Positions 1,887-28,416 of a stretch of DNA of 37,522 nucleotides are shown one piece after another. Under the pieces are notes generated by a model. The model was not told the DNA's origin. It searched no databases and saw nothing but the letters and a program-made list of their open reading frames with translations. The position numbers and the translations under genes are program-made. Source of the stretch: Desulfonema limicola. Lineage in GTDB: Bacteria > Desulfobacterota > Desulfobacteria > Desulfobacterales > RPRI01. Numbering within the stretch: the first letter of the stretch is position 1; each line of letters opens with the position of its first letter. Where the stretch lies: positions 1 through 37,522 of the forward strand of contig DYJH01000013.1 of assembly GCA_020723255.1 (NCBI GenBank). The letters run 5' to 3'.

Positions 1887-1917
1887 TTATTTCTCCGAAA
1901 ATGAAAAGCTTAAGTTC

Positions 1918-3324: not shown

Positions 3325-3336
3325 ACAATCATGCCG

Positions 3337-3726: not shown

Positions 3727-3771
3727 AAAAATATTCCCTTCTTTTATATATGAAATCAGAAACCATAAAAG

Positions 3772-3941: not shown

Positions 3942-4107
3942 TACTTTCTTTAGACTTTTTGCATTTTCATTACTATTGATGTATATTAGGATTATAGACT
4001 AAACAATTAATCAAATCAAACCGAATATGAAATAACTACTTGAAAATCAAATATTGTGCTTTATTTGCAGCAACAAGCAGGTTAGGCTAGTTTATAAAAT
4101 CAAACAA

Positions 4108-11034: not shown

Positions 11035-11067
11035 TACTAACATCAATGAATTACGTGTGATTTAAAA

Positions 11068-11677: not shown

Positions 11678-14095
11678 ATGAAGACAAACGTAATGCTAAA
11701 AGAAAAGGAGATCGGGTCTTATCAGGTAGCCGATAAACCAATGCTGAGTGGCAGGGTGCAAAGACTGAAGGAGAGCTTTAATGAAATAGAGGTTCGGACT
11801 TCCTTGGAGCGTGCCAAGTTTCTACTGGAGGTTTATCAAGAGGCAGGGGGTGAACCTACCATTATTACGCGGGCCAAGGTATTGGACAGGTACCTCCGTG
11901 GGATGACAATCTTCATTGACGAAAATCCCATCGTTGGCACTCTCACGCAATTCCGGAGGGGTGTTAATCCATGCCCGGATTATGATATTACGACAAAGCT
12001 GATCAGCAGCTTTGGTGATGTTATTTTAAGCGATGAAGAAAAAGAACTTTTCGAGCGCGTAGATGAGTTCTTTCGGAATAAGAGTCATCTTGCTCGAACA
12101 AATGAGATATTTCAGGAACTAACCGGGGTAGATCGAGTTTATTTAAGGGATAACGCTTTTTGGATGGATATTGTGGGTTTTCCACTTGGCTATTTGTTGC
12201 CTCCTTACGAAAAGCTTCTGAGTAAAGGATTGAGAGAACTGATTCAAGAAGCAGAGCAAGCTTTGGAAGGGATAAATGTTCTCAATTATAGGGAATTTAA
12301 GAAAAGAGATTTCTATCAGGCAGCCATAATCAGCTTAAATGCCGTCATTGCCTGGGCAAACCGCTATGCCGATTTAGCTGAAAAGATGGCCGAAAAGGAA
12401 AATAATGCCGAAAAGAAAGCTGCTTTTCAGGAAATTGCCAGTACCAGCAGAAGGGTGCCGGAATATCCCGCACGTAATTTCCGTGAGGCGCTGCAATTCT
12501 ATTGGTTTATCCACGCCGCATTGTGGATTGAACAGCCTTCGGCAGCCATTGTTCCGGGACGTTTCCCTCAGTATATGTACCCTTACTATAAAAAAGATAT
12601 GGAGCTTGGCAAAATTACAGAAGAAGATACAATCGAGCTTTTGGAATTACTATGCATCAAACTTTCCGAAATCGGTGTGCAGAACCCAAGCAAGACGCTT
12701 ATGAAGGGGGGGCAACAGCATACTGCTCAGAGTTTTGTTCTGGGTGGGTTTACCCCGGACGGAAAGGATGCAACCAATGATATTGATTTCCTCTGGCTTG
12801 AGGCGGAAAAGCGGGTGCGTATGATTCAACCAAGTACAGTAGCAGTCCTTCACAATAATATATCAGACGCTTTTCTCATGAAATGTATGGATGTTATAAA
12901 GATTGGTCTGGGTAAGCCTGCTCTTATCAACGGCCATATGGCGGTGGTGCGTAACCTTGATCGTTGGAACTGTTCGTTGGAGGAAGCATATGACTTTACG
13001 GTTTTCGGCTGCAGCCAGAGTTTTCCCAGGCACAGCACTGATGGTTCATGGGGGGGCTTGTTAAATACCCCCAAAATTCTGTCGTTAACCCTCAATAACG
13101 GGATTGATCCCTTAACAGGCAGGCAAGCAGGATTAAAAACAGGTGATGCACAAGACTTCAAGACCTACGAAGAATTTTATGAGGCTTTCATGAAACAGTT
13201 CCTATACTTTACGGGACTGATCCGCAAGCTGCACACTATATCCGATAATGTTCATGCCAAATATTATCCCGTACCTTTAGCCTCGGTTTTTACGGATGAT
13301 TGCATGAAAAGGGGCAAGGATCGTTATAATGGCGGCGCAAAATATGCCGGCGATCTCGATTGTCCTGCGGGGGTTGTGGATACTGCAAACTCACTAAGGG
13401 CTATCAAGCAGATCGTATTTGAAGAAAAAAAGGTTACTATGGATACGTTGAACCAGGCACTGAAGGCGAACTTTGTTGGTTATGAGGAATTACAGCACAG
13501 GCTCTCAGGCGTAGTAAAATACGGCAATGAAGACGATTCTGTGGATAGGATCGTAAGAAGCCTTTATGACGAGTTCGCGAAGGAGGATCTCTCTTATGAA
13601 AACCGTCTGGGTAAAGATCATAAAGGGGGCCGGCCTTATGCGATTGTAGTATCAGGTCACGGTAATTTTGGCGCTCACGTAGGCGCTCAGCCTAACGGCA
13701 GAGCTTGTGGGTCCTTGACAGACGGCACGGTATCGGCTACGCCCGGCACGGACCGCAAAGGTCCTACGGCCTTGCTCCGCTCCGCTTCAGGCGCTATTGA
13801 TATGAGAAAATACGCCGGCAATATCTTCAATATGAAGTTGCATCCCACAGCACTGGCAACCGAATCGGATCAAAAAAAATTAATAGCCATGATCAAGACT
13901 TATATGGACATGGGGGGATATCATATCCAATTCAATGTGGCCAGTGCCAAATTATTGAAGGAGGCGCAGAAACATCCTGATCAATATCGGAATTTGGTGA
14001 TCCGAGTGGCAGGATTTAGTGCCTTCTTTGTGCTTCTCGATGCTGACATCCAGAATGAGATTATTGCCCGCACCGAATACAGTAGCTGCTGCTGA
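11678..14095 (+). CDS. Glycyl radical enzyme of the pyruvate formate-lyase superfamily, unassigned reaction
   Basis: The 805-residue protein has the PFL-like domain and the C-terminal glycine-radical domain. The radical loop reads RVAGFSAFF with the likely radical-bearing glycine at G779. The thiyl cysteine is C445 in the loop FGCSQSFPRHS. Glycyl radical dehydratases and hydroxyphenylacetate decarboxylase have Cys-x-Glu here, but this protein has Cys-Ser-Gln, so the usual carboxylate acid/base is missing. It also lacks the paired Cys-Cys of PFL. The chemistry is therefore probably neither diol/choline-type elimination nor formate-lyase; an arylalkyl-type radical addition or another C-C reaction is possible but unproven. 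It is the first gene of the operon, and no activating enzyme with CxxxCxxC lies nearby. Length and both radical loops indicate an intact, functional enzyme. Confidence 0.93.
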   Translation: MKTNVMLKEKEIGSYQVADKPMLSGRVQRLKESFNEIEVRTSLERAKFLLEVYQEAGGEPTIITRAKVLDRYLRGMTIFIDENPIVGTLTQFRRGVNPCPDYDITTKLISSFGDVILSDEEKELFERVDEFFRNKSHLARTNEIFQELTGVDRVYLRDNAFWMDIVGFPLGYLLPPYEKLLSKGLRELIQEAEQALEGINVLNYREFKKRDFYQAAIISLNAVIAWANRYADLAEKMAEKENNAEKKAAFQEIASTSRRVPEYPARNFREALQFYWFIHAALWIEQPSAAIVPGRFPQYMYPYYKKDMELGKITEEDTIELLELLCIKLSEIGVQNPSKTLMKGGQQHTAQSFVLGGFTPDGKDATNDIDFLWLEAEKRVRMIQPSTVAVLHNNISDAFLMKCMDVIKIGLGKPALINGHMAVVRNLDRWNCSLEEAYDFTVFGCSQSFPRHSTDGSWGGLLNTPKILSLTLNNGIDPLTGRQAGLKTGDAQDFKTYEEFYEAFMKQFLYFTGLIRKLHTISDNVHAKYYPVPLASVFTDDCMKRGKDRYNGGAKYAGDLDCPAGVVDTANSLRAIKQIVFEEKKVTMDTLNQALKANFVGYEELQHRLSGVVKYGNEDDSVDRIVRSLYDEFAKEDLSYENRLGKDHKGGRPYAIVVSGHGNFGAHVGAQPNGRACGSLTDGTVSATPGTDRKGPTALLRSASGAIDMRKYAGNIFNMKLHPTALATESDQKKLIAMIKTYMDMGGYHIQFNVASAKLLKEAQKHPDQYRNLVIRVAGFSAFFVLLDADIQNEIIARTEYSSCC

Positions 14096-14177: not shown

Positions 14178-15488
14178 ATGAAACGAATAAGAATTTTAAA
14201 GTTTTTTAGATTATCATTGTTTTCTTTGTTAGTTCTGTTTTTGTGCGGTAGTATAGGACAGGCTATGGATTTGCCGGATGTGATCGACAAGACAAACTGC
14301 AGTCATTACAAAGATATGCTTATCCCAGCTATGTACCGTGCGATTGAAAGGGGCGACTATTCTATTACACCTGGTAAATTAAACTTCAAATACAAACATA
14401 CTGACGGCTTTCTTGCAGCAAGCGCAAAAAATGAAGGGAAATACGACGTAACTCCTGAGGGCGATTTGATCGATAAAAGCACCGGAAAATACCCAGAAAA
14501 CGTTTATGGTTATCCTTTTCCCAACTTAGATATTAAAGATCCCAAAGCCGGGATAAAGATCATATTAAACTTCAATTTTCAGAGATACCGCTTTATGGGC
14601 TCAAGAGAATATGTCCATCTCATGTGGATAGACAAAAAAGGAGAGGAACGTTCTTTATTAGGCTTGGATCAACGCCTTTATATGAATGGTCGGCCACCGG
14701 GTCAGGAAATAAAAAATTCTGAAAAGTTTCTGTCCTTCGAATTTCGGAGAGTTTTGGAACCGATGAGCGGTAGAGGTACCAATACAATGACCTGGTTTTA
14801 TATGGATGCAAGGGATAATACCAGTTATGCCTATGTTCCTGCAATTCGCAGGATTCGCCAAACTCCCACAACATCAAGGTCTGACCCATACATGGGCTCT
14901 GACTCATGGATGGACACAAATTTTATGTGGTTTGGAAAAGATAACACCATGAAATGGAGCTACGTGGGAGAAAAGACAATTCTTGTTTCTTTTACCAGTC
15001 CGGATATGCTTCCTGTACAGGAATTGCCGGATGGAAGAATAACCAAAGTGTTTCCCTATACTGGTTCTCACCCCATATTTGGCTATCAAGACCCAAAATG
15101 GAAGGGCGTATCGTGGGCGCCTCTTAATATTACCTATGTTCCAAGAAAAGTATGGATTGTGGAACAGATGCCAAAAGACCCGTATTATAATTGGGGGTTA
15201 CATGTAAATTATGTCGATCAGGAAACCTATACCATATGGTACAAAGAAGTATATGAAAAATCCGGTGAATTCCGCACGTGGATCACAACTTTATTACATT
15301 ACAGCGAGAGCCCAAGCGGTAAAAACAATACAGGAGATTTTGATACTCAGCTCTATACTGATGAAAAAGTTCGTCATACTACAGCTCTATGCCGATCAGC
15401 GTCATCGGAATCATTCTTATATATGCCCGCTTCAATGCTGGGGCCCAGATTTTTTAGCGTGGATAATTTCCTCATGTTATCTAAATAA
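14178..15488 (+). CDS. DUF1329 family secreted protein (LolA/LolB-like outer-membrane-associated)
   Basis: It begins with a signal peptide (basic MKRIRILK, hydrophobic core, cleavage near GQA-MD). The mature 410 residues match the DUF1329 pattern: early SITPGKLNFKYK, many Tyr/Trp-rich beta strands, the central FRRVLEPMSGRGTNTMTWFY, then the region with PYMGSDSWMDTNF. DUF1329 proteins have a lipoprotein-sorting (LolA/LolB-like) fold and nearly always accompany DUF1302 outer-membrane proteins in clusters for hydrophobic substrates such as steroids, terpenoids or hydrocarbons. I use the ATG at 14178 with the RBS GAGGAG, not the upstream in-frame ATG inside the preceding gene. A run of nine G (14128-14136) lies in the gap before it. 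Binding of a hydrophobic substrate in the periplasm is inferred. Confidence 0.85.
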   Translation: MKRIRILKFFRLSLFSLLVLFLCGSIGQAMDLPDVIDKTNCSHYKDMLIPAMYRAIERGDYSITPGKLNFKYKHTDGFLAASAKNEGKYDVTPEGDLIDKSTGKYPENVYGYPFPNLDIKDPKAGIKIILNFNFQRYRFMGSREYVHLMWIDKKGEERSLLGLDQRLYMNGRPPGQEIKNSEKFLSFEFRRVLEPMSGRGTNTMTWFYMDARDNTSYAYVPAIRRIRQTPTTSRSDPYMGSDSWMDTNFMWFGKDNTMKWSYVGEKTILVSFTSPDMLPVQELPDGRITKVFPYTGSHPIFGYQDPKWKGVSWAPLNITYVPRKVWIVEQMPKDPYYNWGLHVNYVDQETYTIWYKEVYEKSGEFRTWITTLLHYSESPSGKNNTGDFDTQLYTDEKVRHTTALCRSASSESFLYMPASMLGPRFFSVDNFLMLSK

Positions 15489-15534: not shown

Positions 15535-17121
15535 ATGAGAAAAAGAAGATGGGGTAGAGCAGCTTTTTGTGTGTTTGTTATATTGGTAATGTTTGGAGTT
15601 TTATCTTCAAATGCAGCGGCGGAAATGACTACTAGTTTTCATGGTAACTTTGAATCCAATTTTATTTTACGGGATAAGGATGGTATTCAGTACGGTTTTT
15701 TCGATGAAGCTTATGGAGTTCAACAGAGAAATACCTTAAAGTTCGATATTGACGTTGAACCTGGATTGGTATGGGGTACTGTAAGTGTGGAAAAAGTCCA
15801 TTTGACTTATCGGGGCGCCTATGATTCGATTTTTGATTTTCGTGCACATGCATATAATATTAAGGATAATATAGGTGCTTCCAGATTCGATTATGGTCTA
15901 AGAGACATCAGGTTCGAGAATGATTTAAGAGAAGCTTTTATTGATTTTGTTTATAGAGGCGATTCTGAGGGGGGGTTCTTCAGGCCTGGAAGACAGATTG
16001 TTTCCTGGGGTGAGGGCCTGCTTGAAACTCTTAATGATGTTATAAACCCACCGGATCAATCTTATGCTATGTTTTTTCAAAGTCCGGATGATGTTAAGAC
16101 ACCTCTTTGGATGTGCCGGTTAAATTACAGCGTACCCCGTTTTAGTAATATCGGACTTAATTTTGATTTATTGTGGGTTCCTGACATCAGGCCGACTCAG
16201 TTTTCGGTAAGGGACAGTGTTGCGGGCAACCGTACAGCAGGTTTAGAGGCCCCTTATATTAGTATTTTACCTTTTGTTGATTTTAGGGGTCTCGACGTCA
16301 GGGAGGATGTTCCTACCAATGAAAATGAATATGGCGCAAAAGTAAATGCTCAAATCGGAGAACGGCTTAATATTTCTCTGCTTTATTTCAGGGATGTGGT
16401 TAATGATCCTGCAGTCCAGCTTAAGAACTGGATAATAATAGGTGGTCGACCGATACCCACGCTGGCTTCTTTTACACACAACAAACAACATGTTTATGGC
16501 GGTTATTTTAGCTATCAATTATTGGCATTTGGTACGGAAGCTATTATAAGAGGCGAGATATCACACTATACAGCTTATCCGATCAATATTGTAAGTGCAG
16601 ATACCATTCTGAATGGACCAGCAGCGAGGTTGCCTCCTATCCAGTGGGTGGGTATTACATATCTTTTAAAGCCGGTAACAAAAACTACGCTATCGATTGA
16701 CAAGGAATTGCGTATAAGATGGCTATCTAAAGACCTTACAAAAGTTTCATTTGAATGGCTGCATAAGGTGATCAATGAGTGGAATAATCGTTTGGATAAC
16801 AGGTGGTATTATACCGGATCAACTACCAGGATAAGGCAGGACCGCAGAAACATAAGAGAGCAGGATGTGTTCATGGCTCAGGCGCAAACCTATTGGTGGG
16901 CATCCAGGCTTAATCCTTCGTTCACAGTGGCATACAATCCAGGAAAGCATGGAGAAGGTGGAACGGGAATGATTGCTCCTTCAATAAAATGGTATATTAC
17001 TCCCAGGACTTATAGCGATCTGAAACTGCAGGCATTTTTCGGAGATACGAAATCCAGCTGGGGTTTTGGAACTCTAATTCCCACAAGTGATGTAACATTC
17101 AAATTAGGGTATGAGTGGTAA
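15535..17121 (+). CDS. DUF1302 family outer-membrane beta-barrel protein
   Basis: The start at 15535 follows GAAGGAG, and gives a 30-residue signal peptide (RKRRW..., hydrophobic core, SNAAA-E). The 500-residue mature part alternates polar and hydrophobic residues with many aromatic residues, as in a transmembrane barrel. It ends in the segment DVTFKLGYEW, a typical C-terminal strand with a terminal aromatic residue for BAM recognition. The segment FFRPGRQIVSWGEG is characteristic of DUF1302. Together with DUF1329 it probably forms an uptake or export route for a hydrophobic compound. No RND/MMPL transporter, which often completes such sets, is present. An in-frame ATG 324 nt upstream is rejected because it lies within the DUF1329 gene. 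Confidence 0.85.
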   Translation: MRKRRWGRAAFCVFVILVMFGVLSSNAAAEMTTSFHGNFESNFILRDKDGIQYGFFDEAYGVQQRNTLKFDIDVEPGLVWGTVSVEKVHLTYRGAYDSIFDFRAHAYNIKDNIGASRFDYGLRDIRFENDLREAFIDFVYRGDSEGGFFRPGRQIVSWGEGLLETLNDVINPPDQSYAMFFQSPDDVKTPLWMCRLNYSVPRFSNIGLNFDLLWVPDIRPTQFSVRDSVAGNRTAGLEAPYISILPFVDFRGLDVREDVPTNENEYGAKVNAQIGERLNISLLYFRDVVNDPAVQLKNWIIIGGRPIPTLASFTHNKQHVYGGYFSYQLLAFGTEAIIRGEISHYTAYPINIVSADTILNGPAARLPPIQWVGITYLLKPVTKTTLSIDKELRIRWLSKDLTKVSFEWLHKVINEWNNRLDNRWYYTGSTTRIRQDRRNIREQDVFMAQAQTYWWASRLNPSFTVAYNPGKHGEGGTGMIAPSIKWYITPRTYSDLKLQAFFGDTKSSWGFGTLIPTSDVTFKLGYEW

Positions 17122-17167
17122 ACGCTATATTAATTTGCTGGAAGATCGTATTAGAAAGGCTAAAATA

Positions 17168-17953
17168 ATGACCAACTTTGAAGACATTATTTATGAAAAA
17201 AGGGATGGGGCAGCTAAGATCACCTTCAACCGGCCGGAGGTTTATAATGCTATAAGACTAAAGACGATAGAGGAGCTGATTATCGCCTTTGAGGATGCAG
17301 ACAGGGATAACAGCTTAGTAGCAGTAGTGGTTACCGGTAAAGGAGATGCCTTTTGTGCCGGGGGAGATCTTTCACTTTTTAAAGATTTTTCTCCTGAAAA
17401 CGGAAGGGAGTTAGCCGCCCAATGTCTTAAGCTGGCTAACTTGATGAGGGGCATAGGTAAGCCCGTTATTGCGGCGGTAAATGGCTTTTGTATGGGTTGG
17501 GGACTTGAATTTGTTGTTTTTTGCGACCTTGCCGTTGCCTCGGATAATGCCCAATTTGAGCAGCCTGAACTTAGAGTAGGAAGCTGCCCTATGTTTGGGG
17601 CTACTCAGATGTTTCCCTTGATCATGGGAGATAAAAGGGCAAGAGAGGCAGTTTTTCTCTCAAAAAGATATGATGCAAAAGATGCGGAAAAGGCTGGATT
17701 GATAAACAAAGTAGTTCCTGAAAATAAACTGGAAGAGGCGGTGAATGCCTGGTGTAAGCGGCTCTCTGAGATGAGCCCCCAGGCCGTGAGAACTGCGAAG
17801 GTTGCCCTGGGAGTTATTCCCGATCTCCTTCACAGTGCTTTAAGACATGGCTTGATTTTAGCGCCAATGCTTTGGGAAACTCAGGAATCCAAAGAGGCAA
17901 TGACAGCCTTTGTGGAAAAGCGCAAAGCGGACTTTTCTTCGTTCAAAAAATGA
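17168..17953 (+). CDS. Enoyl-CoA hydratase/isomerase (crotonase) family protein
   Basis: The 261-residue protein is a complete crotonase: FNRPEVYNA near the start, CAGGDL (CoA/oxyanion-hole loop), NGFCMGWGLEF, and FEQPELRVG. Both acid/base glutamates of enoyl-CoA hydratase are present with the correct 20-residue spacing (E114 in GLEF and E134 in QPEL, matching rat E144 and E164). Hydration/dehydration of an enoyl-CoA is therefore plausible, although ring-hydrolase relatives such as BadI share the fold. The start is placed at 17168 behind GAAAGG. An ATG at 17111 overlapping the DUF1302 stop would add 19 residues unlike the family. It is translated in series with the dehydratase-type pair 9 nt downstream. 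Confidence 0.93.
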   Translation: MTNFEDIIYEKRDGAAKITFNRPEVYNAIRLKTIEELIIAFEDADRDNSLVAVVVTGKGDAFCAGGDLSLFKDFSPENGRELAAQCLKLANLMRGIGKPVIAAVNGFCMGWGLEFVVFCDLAVASDNAQFEQPELRVGSCPMFGATQMFPLIMGDKRAREAVFLSKRYDAKDAEKAGLINKVVPENKLEEAVNAWCKRLSEMSPQAVRTAKVALGVIPDLLHSALRHGLILAPMLWETQESKEAMTAFVEKRKADFSSFKK

Positions 17954-17962
17954 CGGGTATCT

Positions 17963-19108
17963 ATGATAAAGAGTCTGGAAAAACTGCGAACAATAACTGG
18001 ACATTTTTACAACAATTATCTTAAGGAGGCCAAGGGGAAGGGGCAAAAGATTATCGGTTGGCTGTGCAACTATGTCCCCGTGGAAATCATCGAGGCGGCA
18101 GGAATGGTTCCGCTCAGGGTAATGGGAAAACCCGGAGAAATAAAGATGCATGAGGCAACAGCCTTTCTCAATCTTTATTCATGTTCCTTTACACGGACGG
18201 TTTTGCAGCTTGTGCTGGATAAACAGTATGATTTTTTAGATGGCTTCATAAATTGTGCTACCTGTGACGGGATGAGGAGGCTGGGAGATGCCTTGCCTTA
18301 TCATACAAATCTTCCTGTTTTATATACTTTGTCTGTCCCCCATAAAATGGACGAGGAAGCGGTAAGGTTCTTTACTGATGAGCTGGAGACAATCCGCCGG
18401 AAGTTTGAAAAGACCTTCGGAGTCAGCATTACCGATGATGCCCTGATAGAAGCCATCAAAACCTCAAATCAAGCCAGACGGCTGCTGGCAAGGCTCTATC
18501 TGATGCGAAAAAAAAATAATCCTCCTCTTACAGGTTCAGATGTGCAGGAAATATTGAATGCGATGACGGCTATCCCTATGAAAGAATTTCTCCCCCTGTT
18601 GGAGGGTATTCTTTCAGAGATGGAGGACAAAGCCCCTGATAAAAAAAACGGGGTCAGGCTGATGCTGAGCGGCAGCATCTTAAACAACTATGAATTTATT
18701 AAGGGGATTGAGGAATTAGGCGGCCTGGTGGTAATTGACGCCCTGTGCAGCGGGACCCGGCACTGGTTAGGAGAAATCGATCTTCAGAGTTGCAACAGCC
18801 CTCTTGGAGCTCTTGCAGCGTATTACCTGAAAAAATTTCCTTGCCCCAGGATGTATCCTTCCGAAGACCGCTTCCAAACCATAACCGATCTGGCCATGGA
18901 GTACAGAGTTCAGGGGGTGATCTCCACGGTTATCCGCTATTGCTCTATTCATATCTTTGATGCCCCCCGGTTGAGGGACAGATTATTAGATCTCAATATC
19001 CCGCTTCTTAACCTGGACATGGAATATGGTGCCAATATCAGCGGACAGGTGAAAACACGGGTCCAAGCCTTTATCGAAATGCTCGAGGAGAGTGTTGAAA
19101 ACCCATGA
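17963..19108 (+). CDS. 2-hydroxyacyl-CoA dehydratase / benzoyl-CoA reductase family subunit (BcrC/HgdB-like)
   Basis: These enzymes take very-low-potential electrons through [4Fe-4S] clusters to dehydrate 2-hydroxyacyl-CoAs or reduce aromatic acyl-CoAs. The 381 residues show the family pattern: GWLCNYVPVEIIEAAG near the start (cluster-ligand cysteine followed by P-E-AAG), then NCATCDGMRR, ALCSGTR, and IRYCSIHIFDAPRL towards the end, giving the expected cysteines. The length is that of BcrC (about 380 aa) and of HgdB/FldC. The next gene starts inside its stop codon (ATGA), so the two are translationally coupled and should form a heterodimer. The ATP-dependent activator (HgdC/FldI or BcrA/BcrD) is not encoded in this window. 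Substrate unknown. Confidence 0.92.
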   Translation: MIKSLEKLRTITGHFYNNYLKEAKGKGQKIIGWLCNYVPVEIIEAAGMVPLRVMGKPGEIKMHEATAFLNLYSCSFTRTVLQLVLDKQYDFLDGFINCATCDGMRRLGDALPYHTNLPVLYTLSVPHKMDEEAVRFFTDELETIRRKFEKTFGVSITDDALIEAIKTSNQARRLLARLYLMRKKNNPPLTGSDVQEILNAMTAIPMKEFLPLLEGILSEMEDKAPDKKNGVRLMLSGSILNNYEFIKGIEELGGLVVIDALCSGTRHWLGEIDLQSCNSPLGALAAYYLKKFPCPRMYPSEDRFQTITDLAMEYRVQGVISTVIRYCSIHIFDAPRLRDRLLDLNIPLLNLDMEYGANISGQVKTRVQAFIEMLEESVENP

Positions 19109-20373
19109 GAAAGATCATTGAGGTTGACAATAGTATATGGGATAAAGGTATCGATGTCTGGAAGTCGATCCTGAACTACCGGAAGGAGAAGAAAAATCCT
19201 AGCAAGAGTCAAGTCGCCTATTTTGAGCTTTATATCAAATACCTCGAAAGATTAAGATCTGCACGTGGCAAAGAATTTGCACATGCTACAAGTGTTCCGG
19301 CGGAGATATTTTACGCTATGGACATGGCGCCGGTTCTTCTTGTGGGCACCTGTTTTGCCATCACCCAGTGTATTAAAGAATATCCAAAAGCCATGGAGAT
19401 ATACCGGCAGTACGGCACAGCCGAGGAGATTTGCAGCGCTCATAAAAATGTTATCGCCCATTGCGTTTCAGGCTGGCTGCCCAGGCCAAACGTTTTTATC
19501 GATGTAGGAGGCGGGTGTGATGCCTTTGCCAATTCCATGAAAATTGGGGCTGAGCTTTATGGAGTTCCTCATTTTCAGGTAGATACACCCTACTACAAAA
19601 ATCAGAAATCGATTAATTACCTGGTTACGGAGTTTAAAAAGTTAATTACTTTTCTTGAAGATCAAAGCGGCAGGAAGATGAATTGGGATAAATTGAGTGC
19701 ATCTATGATTTATTCCCAGAAGATGATTGATTTATGGTGGGAGGTTTGGGAGTTGAGAAAAGCCTTTCCAAGCCCAATGGACAACCGTCGGTCATGGGAG
19801 ACCAACTGGATCAACTGGTTTTTTGCCGGGACGCCTGAAGGAGTTTATTACTGGGAGGTTTTAAGAAATGAGCTTTATGAGAGGGTCAAAACAGGAGTAG
19901 GCGCTTACCCTGAGGTCAGAGAGAAATACCGCCTCTTCGACCTCTTTATGGCTCCGGCCTGGGATTTGGGGATTCTGGAGTGGATGCAGCAGGAATATGG
20001 GGCCAATATAGTCCTGGAGGGACTGATTATGTATGATAGAGGCTTAGTGATGGATCCGGACAAGCCGCTGGAATCCATGGCCAAACGCTGGTATTATGGC
20101 CCTCTTATGAATGTTTTGCAAGGACCCACTGAGGACTATATTCAGGACATAGTTAGCCAGGTGGATGAATTTAAGCCTGATGGAGCAATCTGGTGGGACG
20201 GTTTTAGCTGTCGCCAGGCCGGTGCGGTTGATCTGATGGCCAAGTCCCTCGAAAAGATCGGCATCCCCACCATCAGAGTCAAATGTGACACCACCGATCC
20301 GGCCTTTGTCAGCAAGGCGGAGATGCGCCGGCAGTTGTCCGATTTTTTTGAGATGCTTGATTCAAGAAAATAG
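19105..20373 (+). CDS. 2-hydroxyacyl-CoA dehydratase / benzoyl-CoA reductase family subunit (BcrB-like)
   Basis: This is the second, larger member (422 aa) of the FeS dehydratase/reductase pair. Family segments include SVPAEIFYAMDMAPV near residue 65, the cysteine block SAHKNVIAHCVSGWLPRP, VGGGCDAFANSMK and, near the end, WWDGFSCRQAGAVD and RVKCDTTDP. The sizes (381 then 422 aa) and the order recall bcrC-bcrB of class I benzoyl-CoA reductases, but the A and D ATPase subunits are absent, so phenyllactyl-CoA-type dehydratases (FldBC) are an equally good comparison. Overlap of 4 nt with the upstream gene implies coupling. The tryptophan- and tyrosine-rich middle (residues about 215-265) may shape an unusual substrate pocket. 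Confidence 0.92.
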   Translation: MRKIIEVDNSIWDKGIDVWKSILNYRKEKKNPSKSQVAYFELYIKYLERLRSARGKEFAHATSVPAEIFYAMDMAPVLLVGTCFAITQCIKEYPKAMEIYRQYGTAEEICSAHKNVIAHCVSGWLPRPNVFIDVGGGCDAFANSMKIGAELYGVPHFQVDTPYYKNQKSINYLVTEFKKLITFLEDQSGRKMNWDKLSASMIYSQKMIDLWWEVWELRKAFPSPMDNRRSWETNWINWFFAGTPEGVYYWEVLRNELYERVKTGVGAYPEVREKYRLFDLFMAPAWDLGILEWMQQEYGANIVLEGLIMYDRGLVMDPDKPLESMAKRWYYGPLMNVLQGPTEDYIQDIVSQVDEFKPDGAIWWDGFSCRQAGAVDLMAKSLEKIGIPTIRVKCDTTDPAFVSKAEMRRQLSDFFEMLDSRK

Positions 20374-20421
20374 TTGTCCCCGGCTCAAGAGACTATCTAT
20401 TACAAATTATGGAGAGAAACA

Positions 20422-20868
20422 ATGGAACCTATATCCCCAAGAACACAAGCACCGGTTATTGGTGAGTGGAGACTCATTTCGTTTGAGATGCAAACAGGAA
20501 ATGAAGTCATCTACCCTTTTGGTAAACATGTGCAAGGAACAATTATGTACACTGCATCCGGGCGGTTTTTCGGACAAGTTATGCCCGGAGGCCGCCCTGC
20601 TTTTGCATCTGACGACCTGATGAAGGGAACAGACGAGGAAATGGCCGGCTATAGAGGATGCCAGGCGTATTACGGAAGTTATGAACTTGAAGGAGAAAAT
20701 GTAGTCATTCACCATGTGGAAGCCTCTTTATTTCCAAACTGGGAAGGGACATCACAAAGGCGGCTATTTGAGGTGTCAGGAAACCGGCTCAAGATTCGAA
20801 CACCGCCAATGCAGTGGGATGGCAGTGAGGTCAGCTCTGTTATTTTGCTTTTTGATCGGATCGTGTAG
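20422..20868 (+). CDS. Lipocalin-like domain protein (Lipocalin_5 type)
   Basis: The 148-residue protein has no signal peptide and shows the Lipocalin_5 pattern: IGEWRLISFEM at about residues 13-23, GTIMYTASGRFF at about 39-50, the central YYGSYELEGENVVIHHVEAS, then FPNWEGTSQRR, and closes with ILLFDRIV. Such domains form a small beta barrel that often binds a hydrophobic ligand; many sit in catabolic or polyketide operons without known function. The ATG at 20422 has GGAGAG upstream, while an in-frame TTG at 20374 is less likely. It is the last gene of this operon and converges with the regulator, whose stop is only 4 nt away. A decayed paralogue ends the second operon at 30523-30787. Confidence 0.85.
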   Translation: MEPISPRTQAPVIGEWRLISFEMQTGNEVIYPFGKHVQGTIMYTASGRFFGQVMPGGRPAFASDDLMKGTDEEMAGYRGCQAYYGSYELEGENVVIHHVEASLFPNWEGTSQRRLFEVSGNRLKIRTPPMQWDGSEVSSVILLFDRIV

Positions 20869-20872
20869 AACA

Positions 20873-22327
20873 CTAGAAACGCTTTTTTAAGATCTCTATC
20901 TCAATTGGGGATATCTTCAATTGCTCCATCAGTAAGGGATCTAAATTTCCACTCTGTCCGGCAATAAGCATGAGCCAGTTGCGGATCGTATGGTGATCAA
21001 CACCTATGATCTTTGCTGCGCCTCGTAAGGATATTCCTTGCAATAAAAGCTTAAAGGCACTGATAACCTTTTCTTGCGGAGAACGGAGTCCGGAAAAAAT
21101 ACTCCTTGCTCTGCTGCAGAAAGATCTGCCACATTCCTTACATAGAAACCTGCGGACCATCGTTCCGTCCTTGGTTCGGTATGTTCCATTAGAGATGATA
21201 TATGATTTTCCTCCTTCAGGCTGTAAATTGCATGCAGGATTCGGGCAAGTATTTTTTTCTTTGCCATATTGCTGCCCCCAATTATTCCGGTGTCCTTTTT
21301 CAACGGATGAATACCCGCCAACGGTTAGTTCCCCATCGGTTTCTGTTTTATCGGTATGTGCTTTTATCTTACTCTCATTATGCATTACAATTCCTAACGC
21401 CCCGAAAGGACCAAGAATCCGCGACATCTCAACTAATTCTATTTCATAAATATTAGAATGAATTTTACCGGGCAGGCAATTATGCTTTCCAGCAAGTCTG
21501 AATCCTAAGCTCGAAAGATGTATTTGCCCCTCCTCTGTAGCAGAATTGATAGCAATCAAATAATTTTTCTTATGCGTAATTTTTCTAAAATATTGTACGT
21601 TAGTTACATTGTGTCTATATCCTACATTCAAGCTTGCAGAAAAGATGGAATAAGTAAAAAAAACGCCTTGCTGAAAGGTCAGAATATTGCTTAACCTGTC
21701 GGGAGTCAGATGTCCTTCGAAAGTTCCCTTTTTAATGATCTCTGCGTAAACGTCCTTTGCTATGGGTAAACAGATTTGATGCCCCACATAATGTCCCCAG
21801 CAGTCAAAAACAATGCGATTCAATTCAGGCAATAACCTTATAGCAGCCTTGATAACATCTTCCCCCATGGGTTTCTCGTCGCCGTAAATATCATGATGAC
21901 AGGCAAGCATCATGCTGATATGTTTGTCCTTGGTAATCTTTTCATTATACAAGAGATCGGCATCAACGGACTGCTCATGGTTCACACATGAATCTTTTGA
22001 GTGAAATAATTTGTTTTCCATTAATGACAGGGCAAAGCGCCTTTTCTGTATTGAGTACCAAACGGGCTCATCGGCGTTAAGGACGATGCAAACCTGCATT
22101 GGAATTCCGGTGACTTCAGCAATATCATGCAGATTGTCAAGCCGTACCCTATTCCGATTAGTCTCCCAATTCCGTAGTTGCCGGACGCTGACTCCGAGCG
22201 ATGAGGCAAAACTCTCCTGACTTATCTTACGCCATTCTCGGTAATCTTTAATCAGAGCACCCAGTGATTTGTAAAATATTGTATCACTAGCGGAAATGTA
22301 TTTTCCTTGTGGAATAGACCGCTTCAA
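20873..22327 (-). CDS. Regulator with N-terminal XRE HTH and C-terminal zinc ribbon plus transposase-type HTH
   Basis: Residues about 22-80 are an XRE-type HTH (SQESFASSLGVSVRQLRNWE). About 280 residues of unrecognised domain follow, probably the ligand sensor. The C-terminal part has a four-cysteine ribbon (C361-x4-C366 ... C396-x2-C399) and a second HTH, SLRGAAKIIGVDHHTIRNW at about 433-451. This ribbon-HTH unit resembles the N-terminal part of IS1/InsA-type transposases, but no catalytic domain is present, so a regulator is the better call. It starts at TTG (22327), with AAGGATT upstream and no better codon in frame. It is divergent from the carboxylase operon, which it probably controls; a decayed paralogue lies in the same position before the glycyl radical enzyme operon. 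Confidence 0.8.
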   Translation of the reverse strand: MKRSIPQGKYISASDTIFYKSLGALIKDYREWRKISQESFASSLGVSVRQLRNWETNRNRVRLDNLHDIAEVTGIPMQVCIVLNADEPVWYSIQKRRFALSLMENKLFHSKDSCVNHEQSVDADLLYNEKITKDKHISMMLACHHDIYGDEKPMGEDVIKAAIRLLPELNRIVFDCWGHYVGHQICLPIAKDVYAEIIKKGTFEGHLTPDRLSNILTFQQGVFFTYSIFSASLNVGYRHNVTNVQYFRKITHKKNYLIAINSATEEGQIHLSSLGFRLAGKHNCLPGKIHSNIYEIELVEMSRILGPFGALGIVMHNESKIKAHTDKTETDGELTVGGYSSVEKGHRNNWGQQYGKEKNTCPNPACNLQPEGGKSYIISNGTYRTKDGTMVRRFLCKECGRSFCSRARSIFSGLRSPQEKVISAFKLLLQGISLRGAAKIIGVDHHTIRNWLMLIAGQSGNLDPLLMEQLKISPIEIEILKKRF

Positions 22328-22456
22328 TTCTATAATCCTTTTTATAATCCTTACATAATTACTAAGTACTAATTTTATATGATTTTATATCATTTTTTAA
22401 GAGAATGCAAATTGATTCTGTTAGTTACTATGCGAATTGAGAAAGGAAATCATAAG
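22328..22456. promoter_or_regulatory. Divergent promoter/operator region between regulator and carboxylase operon
   Basis: This 129-nt AT-rich gap carries several small repeats: TATAATCCTT twice with a 12-nt period (22331-22352), TACTAAG/TACTAAT in tandem (about 22360-22373), and an inverted ATGAT/ATCAT pair (22379-22391). One or more of these are good candidates for the regulator's binding site, and the TATAAT copies could also be promoter -10 elements. The ribosome binding site of the next gene, GAAAGGAA, lies at about 22441-22448. The assignment is by position and repetition only. Confidence 0.5.
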
Positions 22457-24616
22457 ATGGCGGAAGATAAAAAATATCTCATTTATTTAGATACAGGTGG
22501 GACCTTTTCTGATTGTGTCATCATAAAAGAGGACGGATCATTTGTGAGCGGCAAGGCATCCACGACGCCGGATAACTTAGCAACATGTTTTTTTAATTGC
22601 ATTGAAAACGCGGCACAGCAACTTGGAAAGGGACTAATAGATGTGCTTAAAAATTGCAAACTATTAGGCTTCGGCACTACAGCCGGGACTAATGCCTTAT
22701 TAACTCTTCAGGGACCGAAATTAGGTCTGATTACCACAGCCGGGTTTGAGGACACGACTATCATGATGCGGGGTGTAGGTCGATGGGCAGGTATTCATCC
22801 GTCAATAAGCATGCATGTGCCTGATACTGATAAGCCCCAGCCTCTGGTTCCCAGGTCATTGATCAAGGGCGTGACTGAACGTATAGATAACATTGGTGAA
22901 GTTGTTATCCCTCTCAATGAGCATGATGTAGTAAATGCGGTCAAGGAATTGATTAAGGAAGAAGTGGAAGGGATAGCCGTATGTCTGCTCTGTTCCTATG
23001 TCAATAGCGCCCATGAAAAGAGAATCGGCGAAATTATTGAGCAAATAGCCCCGGACATGCAGGTTTCTTTATCGTATGTGGTTTCGCCCCTGATCAGGGA
23101 ATATTCACGTTCAAACAGCACTATTGCCGACCTTTTTGTGGGCAAGGCCGTTAGAAGGCTTTTTAAAAACATCAAACATAAATTGGACGATTATGGGTAT
23201 GATCGTCCCCTTCTGGTTATGCAGGCCGCGGGTGGTCTCTCCCGCTCCGAGGTAGTCAGACCAATAACGACCCTGCATTCCGGGCCGGTTGGTGGGCTCA
23301 CGGGTGTAGAGTCTTTCATGAAGCTATATGGATATAAGAATGGAGTCGGAAGTGACGTGGGTGGCACCAGTTTTGATGTCAGCATCGTTCCGGAAGATGG
23401 CGCCAAGTTTTTAAGAGAGCCGGTGGTCGGTCGTTACAACCTTCAGAATCCAATGCGTGAGATATTAACATTCGGCGCCGGCGGAGGAACTATTGCATAT
23501 ATTGACAAGTTGAGCGGCACCCTGCGTGTAGGGCCTAAAAGCGCAGGATCAACTCCCGGCCCCGTCTGTTATGATAAAGGCGGGACTCAACCCACGGTCA
23601 CAGATGCGGATGTTATCATGGGCAGGATAGACCCCGATTATTTCCTGGGCGGAACCATAAAACTAAATAAAGAAAAAGCAGTCCGGGCTATGAAAGAGAT
23701 AATAGCTGATCCTTTGGGAATGACAGTATTAGATGCTGCGGAAGCAATTTGTCTTGTTGTAGATTCTTATATGAAGGATGTCCTGAACACGGCTTTTACA
23801 ACAAGGGGTTTGGATCCGAGGGAGTTTATACTATTTGCTTTTGGAGGCGCCGGGCCGGTGCACTGCGCAGGATACAGCAAAGACCTTGGTTTTCAAAAGG
23901 TAATCTCTATGCCATATTCGGCCACCTTTTCTGCGTTTGGAGCTTCTACCGCCAATGTCCTGCACCGTTACGAGAGTTCTCCCTTTGCCGTTATGACGAA
24001 CATCGAATTTGACAAATCGACACGACGGTTTAGGATTGCTGGTTTGGAAAGGCTTCCAAGAGAGGATATCGAGAGGTTCAACCGTATGTATAAAGACCTG
24101 GAGCGTCGCTGCTTTGAGGACATGGAGGCGGAGGGTTTTGCCAAGAAGGCTGTGAAGCTTGTTTATCCTGTTCGAATAAGATACGGCGGACAGCTTGATG
24201 AGGTGGAATTCATGTCTCCTGTGAATCAGATAAATACAACTGATGATTTAAAGGCAATACTTACTGCCTTTGAATCTGAATACGTCAGATTATTTTCGGA
24301 AGGAGCGCTATATCCTGAAGGCGGTGTTGAAATTATGGGTATAGCGCTGCAAGGATCGGCGGTTGTCACAACGCCTGTAATACCTGAGAAACACTTTGTG
24401 AGTGATGACCCCGGGCCTGCTATAAAGAGTGAACGAGATGTTTATTTTAACGGCAAGAATATATCCGCCCGCGTTTTTGATATGAATAAGGTACAAGTGG
24501 GGAATATAATTTTTGGTCCGGCCATAATTGAGGGGGTTGACACTAACCTTGTCGTTCCTCCGGACAGAAAGGTTACTATCGATCAGTATATGAATATGGT
24601 GATGGGAGATATTTGA
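22457..24616 (+). CDS. Hydantoinase A/acetone carboxylase beta-type subunit (ATPase subunit)
   Basis: The protein of 719 residues closely matches the length of acetone carboxylase subunit AcxA (about 717). It has the HyuA/oxoprolinase actin-like ATPase layout: DTGGTFSDC at residues 12-20 (phosphate 1), GSDVGGTSFDVS at 298-309 (phosphate 2), and FGGAGP at 462-467 (adenosine region). In acetone and acetophenone carboxylases this subunit phosphorylates the enolised ketone and/or bicarbonate. I start at 22457 behind GAAAGG; an upstream in-frame ATG at 22379 would add 26 unrelated residues. It heads the second operon. Hydantoinase or oxoprolinase activity is possible, but the fused gamma-like domain on the partner and the CoA ligase after it favour a ketone carboxylase. 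Confidence 0.88.
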   Translation: MAEDKKYLIYLDTGGTFSDCVIIKEDGSFVSGKASTTPDNLATCFFNCIENAAQQLGKGLIDVLKNCKLLGFGTTAGTNALLTLQGPKLGLITTAGFEDTTIMMRGVGRWAGIHPSISMHVPDTDKPQPLVPRSLIKGVTERIDNIGEVVIPLNEHDVVNAVKELIKEEVEGIAVCLLCSYVNSAHEKRIGEIIEQIAPDMQVSLSYVVSPLIREYSRSNSTIADLFVGKAVRRLFKNIKHKLDDYGYDRPLLVMQAAGGLSRSEVVRPITTLHSGPVGGLTGVESFMKLYGYKNGVGSDVGGTSFDVSIVPEDGAKFLREPVVGRYNLQNPMREILTFGAGGGTIAYIDKLSGTLRVGPKSAGSTPGPVCYDKGGTQPTVTDADVIMGRIDPDYFLGGTIKLNKEKAVRAMKEIIADPLGMTVLDAAEAICLVVDSYMKDVLNTAFTTRGLDPREFILFAFGGAGPVHCAGYSKDLGFQKVISMPYSATFSAFGASTANVLHRYESSPFAVMTNIEFDKSTRRFRIAGLERLPREDIERFNRMYKDLERRCFEDMEAEGFAKKAVKLVYPVRIRYGGQLDEVEFMSPVNQINTTDDLKAILTAFESEYVRLFSEGALYPEGGVEIMGIALQGSAVVTTPVIPEKHFVSDDPGPAIKSERDVYFNGKNISARVFDMNKVQVGNIIFGPAIIEGVDTNLVVPPDRKVTIDQYMNMVMGDI

Positions 24617-24639
24617 AAAAAGAAACGGAGGAAATACTA

Positions 24640-26982
24640 ATGAACAATTGCATACATATAGATCCGATCGAATATGAACTTTTTTACAACAGGCTCCATG
24701 AAGCTTTGTTTGATGCAAAGGAGGCCATCAAGCTGCTTTCGGCATCCGAGATTGTCAGGGAAGCAAATGAGGCAATGCAGTGCGTTTGCCGGCCCGATGG
24801 AGAAACAATACTTATGTCTGCCGGACTTTTGGCTCATGTGGCAAGTATTACTCACAACATTAGATATATCATAGCAGATAAATATGAGGAGGATATCGGT
24901 ATTTATGAGGGAGACCAATTTATATGCAATGATTGCCATCTTGGCGGGATGCACATCCCTGACATGATGATCATCGCCCCATTATTCTATAAAGACAAGC
25001 ATATCGGCTGGCTTGGGAACGGCACCCATGTTCCGGAAGTGGGAGCCATTGAGCCGGGTGGCATGCCAGCCACAGCAACCGAATTCTGGCATGAGGGCAT
25101 ATGCCTCCCCGGTGTAAAAATAGTTGAAAGGGGCAAGGTAAAGCGTGACATAATGAATATGATGAGGCGCGCTGTCCGCGACCCGCGAGGCATAGATATA
25201 GACACCAGAGCAAAAATTGCCGGCAATGAAAGGGCGAGAACCCATATTATAAAAATCATTGATGAGTTCGGCATTGACTTTTATATGGCCGCTTCCAGTC
25301 AACTGGTCAAAGATGCCGAGGCCCAGGCTAAGCGGAAAATAAAACAACTGGCAAAAGGAAAATTCAGAGCCAGGTGTTTTACGGATTGTGTAAACTCAAC
25401 ATTGCAAAAGCTGAGGATGGTTGAACTGGCGATTGAGATTACAGAAGATGGCATGATGAACATAACGGCGCCTGTGGTATCTCCCCAGGCGGCAGGCTAC
25501 AATAATGCCGCCTATCCGGCTTTAGAGGGACTGATATTCTGCACTCTTCTGTGGCAGCTATTTTATGACGCCAGATGGAATACAGGTTGTCTGAAGGCGT
25601 TGAACATCGATATTCCTAAAGGATCTATGATCTCCGCTGATCAGAGCGCGGCTGTTGCCTATGCCCCTGTCGGAATAGGAATGCAGGTTATGGGCATTGT
25701 TAATGAATTGATTACACGCAGTTCTTTTATCGCAAGTAATTTTAACGATATGATTGCGCCGTGCGCATTTCTTAATGTCATACTGGCTGGAGGACTGGAC
25801 AGGTATGGCAGGAATTGTGCCGCCGCCATAACAAGCTGCATGATGACCGGTGGAGGTGCGCGATATGACAAAGACGGGCAAGACACTAGCGTAACTGAAT
25901 GGAATCCATGGACGGATTTTGGGGATGCGGAAGGCAACGAGGTCAAGGTGCCAATCTTTCATCTCGGCAGAAGGCACATCGTCGATTCAGGGGGGGCAGG
26001 CAAGTACAGGGGCGGTTCTGCCGGCGAGACAATCGTTTCCGTTCATGCATCTCCTTTCGCGGTTGTCGGCCATCTCGGTTCCGGTGGATATGTCAGCGGC
26101 GTGCAGGGAATATACGGCGGGTATCCGCCGGCTAAGGCCAGTTTGTTTATAGCCAGAGATGCGGATTTCCGGGAGAGGGGAAAAAGAGGAGAATCAATAC
26201 CTCATTCCACAGAAGAATTACTCCAGATATACGGAAACAAGGTTCAGAAACCCTATCCGGCCTATCCTATGACACCTGCAAGTGAGAACGATATAATAGC
26301 ATCTCAGTGCTGGGGCGGAGGCGGATCAGGTGATCCCCTTGAGAGGGACACTGAGGCTATAGTCAATGATATCCGAAACAAATTAACCTCATTAGATATG
26401 GCAAAAGATGTATATTGCATCGCTGTTGATCCTGAAACTTTAGAGGTGGACAAAGTTGAAACGCAGAAGATGAGAGCGGCAAAAAAGAAAAAAAGACTTT
26501 ATGAGGGAATTCCCGGACAAAAGTTTGTTTCCCAGATGGTGGAGAAAAGGGAAAAAAGAGATTTCTCTAAGCCGGTGCTGGATTTTTTTGATGAGATAAG
26601 TGCTTATTCGGATGGCTTTAGAGAGCAACTGACATTTGAGAAGGAGTTTGCCAAAAAAGAACTGTCAAAACCGGATGTAAAGCCGGTAAGGGAAGTTCTT
26701 AAGCTGACCCCTTATGTAAAGATTGTGGAGGATGCTAAGGGCGATAAATATGCTGCCTGCAGCAATTGCTCTCATGTCTATTGTTCAGCCTATGAGAACT
26801 TCAAGTTGTACGCTCTGATTTATGACAGGGACCCCAAGGATATCCAAAGGGATTATCTGGGACCGGACAAGGATTGGATGATATACCGGGAGTTTTACTG
26901 TCCAGGATGCAGCAGTCAGATAGAGGTGGAAGCCACGCCTTCCTGCACACCGATTCTACACAATATAGAGATTAAATTATAA
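24640..26982 (+). CDS. Hydantoinase B/acetone carboxylase alpha-type subunit fused to a gamma-like zinc ribbon
   Basis: Residues 1 to about 640 form the HyuB/AcxB domain, with ICNDCHLGGMHIPDM and NGTHVPEVGAIEPGG (metal and substrate regions) and the later glycine-rich CWGGGGSGDPLERD block. The last 90 residues are a separate unit with a CxxC pair at C707/C710 and another at C754/C757 (YREFYCPGC...IEVEATP). This resembles the small zinc-binding gamma subunit (AcxC/ApcB type), normally a separate gene. The fusion supports a carboxylase over a hydantoinase. The ATG at 24640 is preceded by GGAGG 8 nt away; the in-frame TTG at 24613 overlapping the upstream stop is less likely. The pair probably carboxylates a ketone with ATP. 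Confidence 0.88.
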   Translation: MNNCIHIDPIEYELFYNRLHEALFDAKEAIKLLSASEIVREANEAMQCVCRPDGETILMSAGLLAHVASITHNIRYIIADKYEEDIGIYEGDQFICNDCHLGGMHIPDMMIIAPLFYKDKHIGWLGNGTHVPEVGAIEPGGMPATATEFWHEGICLPGVKIVERGKVKRDIMNMMRRAVRDPRGIDIDTRAKIAGNERARTHIIKIIDEFGIDFYMAASSQLVKDAEAQAKRKIKQLAKGKFRARCFTDCVNSTLQKLRMVELAIEITEDGMMNITAPVVSPQAAGYNNAAYPALEGLIFCTLLWQLFYDARWNTGCLKALNIDIPKGSMISADQSAAVAYAPVGIGMQVMGIVNELITRSSFIASNFNDMIAPCAFLNVILAGGLDRYGRNCAAAITSCMMTGGGARYDKDGQDTSVTEWNPWTDFGDAEGNEVKVPIFHLGRRHIVDSGGAGKYRGGSAGETIVSVHASPFAVVGHLGSGGYVSGVQGIYGGYPPAKASLFIARDADFRERGKRGESIPHSTEELLQIYGNKVQKPYPAYPMTPASENDIIASQCWGGGGSGDPLERDTEAIVNDIRNKLTSLDMAKDVYCIAVDPETLEVDKVETQKMRAAKKKKRLYEGIPGQKFVSQMVEKREKRDFSKPVLDFFDEISAYSDGFREQLTFEKEFAKKELSKPDVKPVREVLKLTPYVKIVEDAKGDKYAACSNCSHVYCSAYENFKLYALIYDRDPKDIQRDYLGPDKDWMIYREFYCPGCSSQIEVEATPSCTPILHNIEIKL

Positions 26983-26994
26983 AGGTATTGCAAA

Positions 26995-28380
26995 ATGTCA
27001 GAGAGAAAATATTGGAACGAGGAAATGGAGACAAAATCTTATGAGGAGATGAGTGATATTCAATTTGGAAAGCTGAAGAACCAAATTCATTATATCTACA
27101 ACAACTCTCCTCTTTATTATAAAAAGAAATTTGATGATGCCGGAGTGAAACCGGGTGATGTTAAAACGTGGGAGGATTTTTATAATTTGCCGATTATGGG
27201 CAACAAAGAAATGGAGATAAAAAGCCAGAAAGAGTCTCTTGACAGAGGAGATGGCCATCCATTTGGCACATTCCTTTGTGCGCCTGTTGAAAAAGTTATA
27301 GGAATGACAGCTACAGGAGGTACCACAGGCGATCCCACCTTTTCTTACATATATACAGTAAAAGATCTTCGTATCAATGACGAAGTCTGGGCTCGTGTTT
27401 TTTGGAAAGCCGGTATAAGGCACGGTAATTTTGTGGCTAATATATTTGCTCAAAGCATGCATGCCGGCGGCTGGCCGGTAAATCATGCATTGACCTCTTA
27501 TGGCGCTTGTTCCATTCCTGTCGGAGCAGAGGCAGGCACGGATCGGATTTTGCGGATGCTAAATTTATTCAGGCCTGCAGCCATTGTAGGCACTGCGCCA
27601 TTAATGGAGCATCTGATAGAGAGATGTCCGGAGGTATTGAAAAAGAGCATAAGTGAACTTGGGATTAAGATACTTTTGTGTGCCGGTGCGCCGGGAGCCG
27701 GGATTCCTTCGGTCAGGAAAAAACTTGAAGATGCCTATGGCGCAAAAATATTTGATTCTGCCGGCGGTGGCCAAGGAGCTCACATGGTTTCGTGTGATTC
27801 AAAAGAATATTACGGCATGCACATGAACTGCGCAGACTATTTCATCTGGCCGGGAGATCTTATTGATCCTGAGACAGGCAAGGCTATTCAAATTGCGGAA
27901 GGCGTGATCGGACACGCCATTTTCACTGCTCTGGAACAGGAGGCCAAACCTTTTTTCAGATACGCCTGGGGTGATTTACACCAGGTTTTCACAAAAGAAT
28001 GCCCTGGATGCGGCTTTAGAGGGCTTAGAATCAGAATTGTCGGCAGAGCGGATGAAATGCTGATAGTAAAAGGCGTAAATATTTATCCCACGGCCGTAAA
28101 GGGAATTGTAAATACATTCTTCCCTCGGGTGACAGGAGAAATGCGCATTATTCTGGATGAGCCTGGTCCTGATGTAAAACCTCCCCTGAAGCTTGAGATC
28201 GAACATGCCGGTTTAAGCCAAAGTGAGTTGCCGGCACTCAGAGATATTATAATTCAGGAGATAAGAAATAAGCTGGAGGTGCGACCGGATGTCAAACTTG
28301 TAGCAGCCGGCACTTTTGAAAGGGCAGGTGGAGTTTCGGCTAAAGGGACCTTGATTGAAAAGCGTTATAAAAACAGTTAG
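26995..28380 (+). CDS. Phenylacetate-CoA ligase (PaaK) family acyl-CoA ligase
   Basis: This is an AMP-forming ligase of the PaaK branch of the ANL superfamily. The phosphate-binding loop is T107-GGTTGDP-114 and the adenine-side motif FDSAGGGQGA follows. The hinge is seen in GLRIRIVGRADEML, and VKGVNIYP with AKGTLIEKRY occurs near the end, where the C-terminal lysine is expected. The 461 residues fit PaaK (about 440 aa). It lies 12 nt after the carboxylase alpha subunit. That order, carboxylase then ligase, matches the acetophenone route (Apc carboxylase then benzoylacetate-CoA ligase), so the likely role is CoA activation of the beta-keto acid made upstream. Substrate is not deducible. Confidence 0.9.
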   Translation: MSERKYWNEEMETKSYEEMSDIQFGKLKNQIHYIYNNSPLYYKKKFDDAGVKPGDVKTWEDFYNLPIMGNKEMEIKSQKESLDRGDGHPFGTFLCAPVEKVIGMTATGGTTGDPTFSYIYTVKDLRINDEVWARVFWKAGIRHGNFVANIFAQSMHAGGWPVNHALTSYGACSIPVGAEAGTDRILRMLNLFRPAAIVGTAPLMEHLIERCPEVLKKSISELGIKILLCAGAPGAGIPSVRKKLEDAYGAKIFDSAGGGQGAHMVSCDSKEYYGMHMNCADYFIWPGDLIDPETGKAIQIAEGVIGHAIFTALEQEAKPFFRYAWGDLHQVFTKECPGCGFRGLRIRIVGRADEMLIVKGVNIYPTAVKGIVNTFFPRVTGEMRIILDEPGPDVKPPLKLEIEHAGLSQSELPALRDIIIQEIRNKLEVRPDVKLVAAGTFERAGGVSAKGTLIEKRYKNS

Positions 28381-28416
28381 CCAATATTGTGTCAATATCA
28401 AGAAAGGAGGCAAAAA

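Follow-up and report, generated by a model that had tools for sequence, protein, structure and literature searches.

Anaerobic attack on unfunctionalized or hydrophobic compounds depends on few chemistries, and glycyl radical enzymes (GREs) cover several of them. In two GREs, replacing the glutamate of the Cys-x-Glu (CxE) motif with glutamine left no activity: HypD E436Q (PMC7077986) and IslA E470Q (PMC8473560). In monoterpene-degrading Castellaniella defragrans, a transposon insertion in ameB, which encodes a DUF1329 protein, reduced growth on monoterpenes (PMC6394551).

Here we describe a GRE gene that carries glutamine at the CxE position and is followed by a DUF1329 gene. It lies in a window of 37,522 nucleotides, the whole stretch of Desulfonema limicola DNA that was analyzed. 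As read from its sequence, the open reading frame encodes an intact GRE, an oxygen-sensitive radical enzyme, of a clade without a characterized member, and it probably performs a step in the breakdown of a hydrophobic compound.

An intact glycyl radical enzyme and its paralogs

The gene (Table 1) has a ribosome site, AAAGGAGG, immediately 5' of its ATG and is translated into an 805-amino-acid product without an internal stop. The PFL-like and Gly_radical domains of Pfam span this product. An AlphaFold2 model (18 sequences) has the GRE fold with a pLDDT of 81 and a pTM of 0.86, and among PDB entries it is most similar to 1,2-propanediol and glycerol dehydratases (TM of ~0.86). The marks of the superfamily are present: G779 in the RVxG[YF]S loop, here RVAGFS, and a mid-chain thiyl cysteine in the PFL-like barrel, C445, which is followed by S446 and Q447 in the motif FGCSQS. 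The statement in the earlier note that the radical glycine and the thiyl cysteine are both intact is thus borne out by translation, domains, and predicted fold.

TABLE 1 Features of the window around the GRE gene
Feature	Position	Strand	Basis
TPR-repeat protein with a YcaO domain, upstream of the island	8961-10691	-	
XRE-family regulator remnant, between tRNA-Ala and the GRE gene	11067-11231	-	55 aa aligned at 51% identity; one stop
Glycyl radical enzyme (GRE), CSQ clade, 805 aa	11678..14095	+	Pfam PF02901 (PFL-like) 520 bits, PF01228 (Gly_radical) 96 bits; tree; AF2 model
C445 (thiyl), S446, Q447 (site of the CxE glutamate) codons	13010..13018	+	
G779 codon (glycyl radical site, RVAGFS)	14012..14014	+	
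DUF1329/LolA-like periplasmic protein, signal peptide	14178..15488	+	PF07044 107 bits; start by signal-peptide reading; mechanical ORF from 14019
DUF1302 outer-membrane protein, signal peptide	15535..17121	+	PF06980 47 bits; start by signal-peptide reading; mechanical ORF from 15211
Crotonase-fold protein, closest to MenB/BadI and enoyl-CoA hydratases	17111..17953	+	Below all curated cut-offs
HGD-D protein 1 (2-hydroxyacyl-CoA dehydratase/benzoyl-CoA reductase family; nearest solved BzdN)	17963..19108	+	PF06050 290 bits
HGD-D protein 2, pairs with protein 1	19105..20373	+	PF06050 175 bits
Lipocalin-like protein	20374..20868	+	PF13924 105 bits
XRE-type regulator	20873..22327	-	PF01381
Hydantoinase A/acetophenone carboxylase gamma-like subunit, divergent operon	22379..24616	+	
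Hydantoinase B/acetophenone carboxylase delta-like subunit fused to acetone carboxylase gamma domain	24613..26982	+	
PaaK-like CoA ligase (AMP-binding)	26995..28380	+	
Radical SAM protein, NF045502 variant type	28387..29703	+	200 bits, cut-off 125
Small PNPOx-like protein, weak match	29716..30174	+	21.7 bits, below cut-off

The genome to which the window belongs (3.67 Mb, 217 contigs, 87% complete) encodes four close paralogs with 78, 61, 60, and 60% identity to the window GRE as well as one distant GRE, and a genome of the same genus encodes one GRE with 58% identity. The glutamine two residues after the cysteine, pointed out in the earlier note, is real: GCSQS is found in all six enzymes (the window GRE, the four close paralogs, and the same-genus protein), which shows that Q447 is not an error. 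His452 and Asp455 of the Cys loop are likewise invariant across these six. The distant sixth GRE of the genome (L006/L013) has a GCSD motif, 33% identity, and a long branch, and a regulator of the window XRE family is adjacent to it.

No GRE activase was found within the window, and the radical SAM protein in Table 1 was rejected as a candidate after the activase model gave no match to it. Exactly two GRE activases were found in the genome (87% complete), each adjoining a paralog (loci L010 and L011). Five paralogs in one genome and a window copy without an adjacent activase might point to a decayed or regulatory protein that does not catalyze a reaction. However, all five copies have whole Cys and Gly loops and are free of stops and frame shifts, and both genomes share the pocket motifs, so that we consider decay very improbable.

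Phylogenetic placement and family scores

A maximum-likelihood tree was calculated for 48 GREs comprising the set from this genome, relatives from other genomes, and references (GD, PD, HpsG, the N-methyl-hydroxyproline dehydratase 8id1, CutC, HypD, YbiW, MasD, and BssA) taken from PDB alignments or annotated records. The window GRE falls within a 20-member clade (support of 100/99) that contains none of the characterized enzymes. The sampled characterized CxE eliminases form their own clade (96/96), and BssA and MasD form a third; both are separate from that of the window GRE. A group of GREs with Tyr two residues after the cysteine (L037, L038, L041, and L042; Asp in L055) is sister to BssA/MasD (100/98) and has no characterized member among the rows used.

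Family scores were in keeping with this placement. None of the NCBIfam GRE models that matched the window GRE, the broad PFL2-3 model included (542 versus 678 bits), did so above its curated cut-off. The window GRE scored 460 bits against the IAD model (cut-off of 1100), which gave 460 to 552 bits among the clade members scanned, and 391 bits against the HPAD model (cut-off of 1150); no PhdB model was among those matched. HPAD, IAD, and IslA, which were compared by score alone, score no closer to the window GRE than the dehydratases do. Pyruvate formate-lyase identity is remote both by score (TIGR01255, 92 bits versus a cut-off of 994) and by motif, GCSQ rather than Cys-Cys. A BssA/AssA-type identity was ruled out by clade placement and motif, as the enzyme has neither CMSP nor the fumarate-binding Arg. 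A literature search returned no paper on this clade. The earlier note had named placement inside a characterized clade with Gln at this position and a known substrate as the outcome that would overturn its proposal; the window GRE was placed elsewhere, in a tree drawn without HPAD, PhdB, IAD, and IslA.

The residue two positions after the cysteine

In the alignment, this residue is Glu in the CxE eliminases and Ser in BssA and MasD. The earlier note had named glutamate for the GRE dehydratases and hydroxyphenylacetate decarboxylase and Cys-Cys for PFL. Cys-x-Glu does mark eliminases and arylacetate decarboxylases, but BssA and MasD (Cys-Met-Ser) had been omitted, so the contrast does not extend to all non-PFL GREs. 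Within the 20-member clade the position is occupied by Q, S, P, G, or E, with Q in 12 rows, and the Chloroflexota sisters (L015 to L018) keep CxE. A single clade of all CxQ rows was marginally rejected (p-AU of 0.035), so Q probably underwent repeated gain or loss.

The simplest reading of the alignment is that the usual CxE acid/base has been lost from the window GRE; His452 or Asp455 could act as acid/base in its place. Glutamine was discarded as a unique marker of a new reaction: the position varies in the clade, CxQ monophyly is marginally rejected, and the Chloroflexota members have Glu. The proposal of a new reaction class therefore stands in part. The window GRE lies outside every characterized clade placed in the tree and appears to have lost the CxE acid/base, and a new class is possible, but Gln by itself does not signal one.

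Other changes in the pocket

Pocket residues were read from the alignment and compared with 27 other GREs (the distant sixth GRE was left out), most of which are themselves uncharacterized. Asp297 is present in 27/27 of these, Arg390 in 26/27, and Asp419 in 26/27, and all three are absent from 20/20 clade members. We infer that the three residues form a buried charge network. Furthermore, Tyr780 of the glycyl loop is Phe in 19 of the 20 clade members. Residues H164, H281, and S282, which we take to be substrate-site residues of glycerol dehydratase, align with Y172, A289, and A290 of the window GRE, so the diol-dehydratase substrate residues are lost. Here the H164 position (H160 in HypD) is Y, F, or L, and the H281/S282 pair is replaced by A/G and A/S. 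Judged from the alignment, the loss of D297, R390, and D419, the Tyr780Phe exchange, and the loss of the diol-dehydratase residues are stronger signatures of the clade than Gln447. This comparison separates general features of the GRE active site (Cys and Gly) from those that are not general (the CxE glutamate, D297, R390, and D419).

These residues bear on whether the window GRE could be an ordinary eliminase of the diol-dehydratase type, in which Gln for Glu has little effect and the substrate is a somewhat larger alcohol or ether. Among solved structures, propanediol and glycerol dehydratases come nearest to the window GRE, and Gln could still hydrogen bond a hydroxyl group. However, the Glu-to-Gln variants of HypD and IslA are inactive, the His that tunes the glutamate (HypD H160; GD H164) and the H281/S282 pair are both replaced, and the window GRE scores below all eliminase models. 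We therefore regard an ordinary eliminase as quite improbable.

Genomic context

The GRE gene leads a co-directional run that continues with the DUF1329, DUF1302, crotonase, HGD-D (two genes), and lipocalin-like genes; domain profile matches agree with the earlier description of an uptake pair, a crotonase, and a dehydratase-family pair. The XRE regulator is convergent to this run, and the hydantoinase A/B, PaaK-like ligase, and radical SAM operon is divergent from the regulator. All three elements of an acetophenone/acetone carboxylase set (HyuA, HyuB, and the zinc gamma/ApcB domain) are present, each below the equivalog cut-offs, and this ketone carboxylase operon, divergent from the GRE operon, may be unrelated to the GRE. 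A tRNA-Ala gene lies directly upstream of the GRE gene and housekeeping genes lie on both flanks, so the island looks catabolic. The YcaO-domain gene and the regulator remnant are found on its upstream side.

The crotonase retains both hydratase glutamates in an alignment read by eye, and a BadI-like retro-Claisen role is not favored on that account. A benzoyl-CoA pathway was likewise set aside as a sink, as no ring-opening hydrolase scored above cut-off in the 87% complete genome. A search for sigma-54 promoters gave fewer matches than chance.

DUF1329 genes recur next to the paralogs. One was found within 5.6 kb of the GRE in 4/4 cases with enough flanking sequence, counting the window GRE and paralogs. 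With the 32 DUF1329 genes scoring above cut-off spread at random over 3.67 Mb, the four chances multiply to 8e-6, and Fisher's method gives a P of ~0.003. At one paralog locus (L009), genes for MMPL, YCF48, DUF1302, and DUF1329 proteins stand in a row. AmeABCD of C. defragrans is composed of this set, and the "Nanopod" cluster of the benzene degrader "Ca. Anaerobenzenivorax" (PMC13101534) is similar to it. In L009, two transposase genes (1661-4810) separate the regulator from the GRE. At another (L007), SDR and aldehyde ferredoxin oxidoreductase (AOR) genes are adjacent. The XRE regulator family is present at most GRE loci of the genus (L007, L009, L012, L013, and L030). DUF1329 and DUF1302 near the GRE, together with an AmeABCD-like set beside one paralog, suggest a hydrophobic substrate.

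The genome also contains about 30 paralogs of the window XRE regulator. The DUF1329/regulator modules hold AORs, FAD-binding oxidoreductases, molybdenum enzymes, HGD-D pairs, and BcrAD-type ATPases and represent a marked expansion for hydrophobic-compound catabolism. Because there are about 30 such modules and many AORs, the neighbors are only weakly specific to the GRE. A dsrA match above cut-off identifies the organism as a sulfite-reducing anaerobe.

In a distant genome of the same phylum (G267), clade members are found amid genes for acyl-CoA dehydrogenases, a crotonase, an activase-like protein, and 2-oxoacid oxidoreductase. This 2.8-Mb genome has 23 GRE matches, with at least three full clade GREs on one 19-kb contig (L029). 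The Chloroflexota relatives have other neighbors (UbiD and a TRAP transporter). Since these relatives keep CxE and their neighbors differ, the clade may hold several reactions.

Proposed function

We propose, with a probability of about 0.5, that the window GRE is a rewired enzyme derived from an eliminase and that it converts a hydrophobic substrate into a carbonyl product. The DUF1302/DUF1329 pair would bring in the substrate, probably a terpenoid, alicyclic, or aryl-alkyl compound. A radical SAM activase whose gene adjoins that of a paralog would form the G779 radical in trans, C445 would be converted to the thiyl radical, and this would abstract hydrogen from the substrate. The substrate radical would then undergo rearrangement or cleavage in the absence of the customary glutamate, whose role as base His452 or Asp455 may take over. 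The carbonyl product would enter a route to a CoA thioester, possibly through ketone carboxylation and CoA ligation by the divergent operon in the window and through SDR and AOR at other loci. The reading of the product as a carbonyl compound is supported by these neighbors: ketone-carboxylase-like proteins and a CoA ligase here, SDR and AOR elsewhere.

Several of the same observations would also suit a GRE that does not eliminate and instead makes or breaks a C-C bond (non-fumarate addition, ring opening, or decarboxylation), a new class that, like BssA and MasD, does without a base at Cys+2. The residue at Cys+2 is non-Glu, as it is in the fumarate-adding enzymes (Ser), the context is one of hydrophobic uptake, and the neighbors belong to CoA pathways. 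D297, R390, and D419, which eliminases and fumarate-adding enzymes share, are lost, and this may be a sign that the chemistry or the architecture differs. On the other hand, the window GRE has no Arg aligned with the fumarate-binding R508 of BssA or R492 of MasD (~15 residues after the Cys), and no small Fe-S accessory subunits like those of BssA/MasD were noticed nearby. Fold and sequence are closest to diol dehydratases, and the CxE sisters in the Chloroflexota suggest an eliminase ancestor. Such C-C bond chemistry in a non-eliminating GRE appears rather unlikely to us.

It is possible, though less likely than not, that the clade carries out a GRE reaction so far undescribed, such as a radical rearrangement or C-C cleavage that acts on a terpenoid, alicyclic, or steroid-like compound and needs neither the CxE base nor D297, R390, and D419. 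One sulfite-reducing genome, rich in uptake modules for hydrophobic compounds, carries five GREs of this clade with its rewired pocket, and these enzymes are a place to seek a new activation reaction.

Comparison with known systems

The B12-independent glycerol and 1,2-propanediol dehydratases (1r8w, 5i2a, and 9rco) share with the window GRE the fold (TM of ~0.86), the Cys and Gly loops, and ~31% identity. In contrast to them, the window GRE has Gln for Glu, does not keep H164/H281/S282, lacks D297/R390/D419, and belongs to another clade. The fold is also common to HypD (6vxc, trans-4-hydroxy-L-proline dehydratase) and the N-methyl-hydroxyproline dehydratases (8iof and 8id1). HypD, with Gln at position 390, is the only compared enzyme outside the clade that also lacks Arg there. 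However, its residues H160, D278, D339, E436, and Y450 are all replaced in the aligned window GRE, and HypD and 8id1 sit in the eliminase clade.

HPAD (2y8n) and IAD (7e7l, as its depositors name it) belong to the same superfamily, and the IAD model scores fairly high in the clade. Both enzymes keep Glu at Cys+2, and the window GRE scores far below their cut-offs of 1100 to 1150 bits; they are compared here outside the tree. Benzylsuccinate synthase (BssA, 4pkc) and (1-methylalkyl)succinate synthase (MasD, 9o8u) resemble the window GRE in their non-Glu residue at Cys+2 and hydrophobic context and differ from it in their CMSP motif and separate clade.

The window has DUF1302 and DUF1329 alone of the components in the AmeABCD system of C. 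defragrans and the "Nanopod" cluster, and the available parts of those two reports describe no GRE with these modules. The set of DUF1302, DUF1329, YCF48-like, and MMPL/RND proteins that they have in common is also found beside the GRE paralog at L009.
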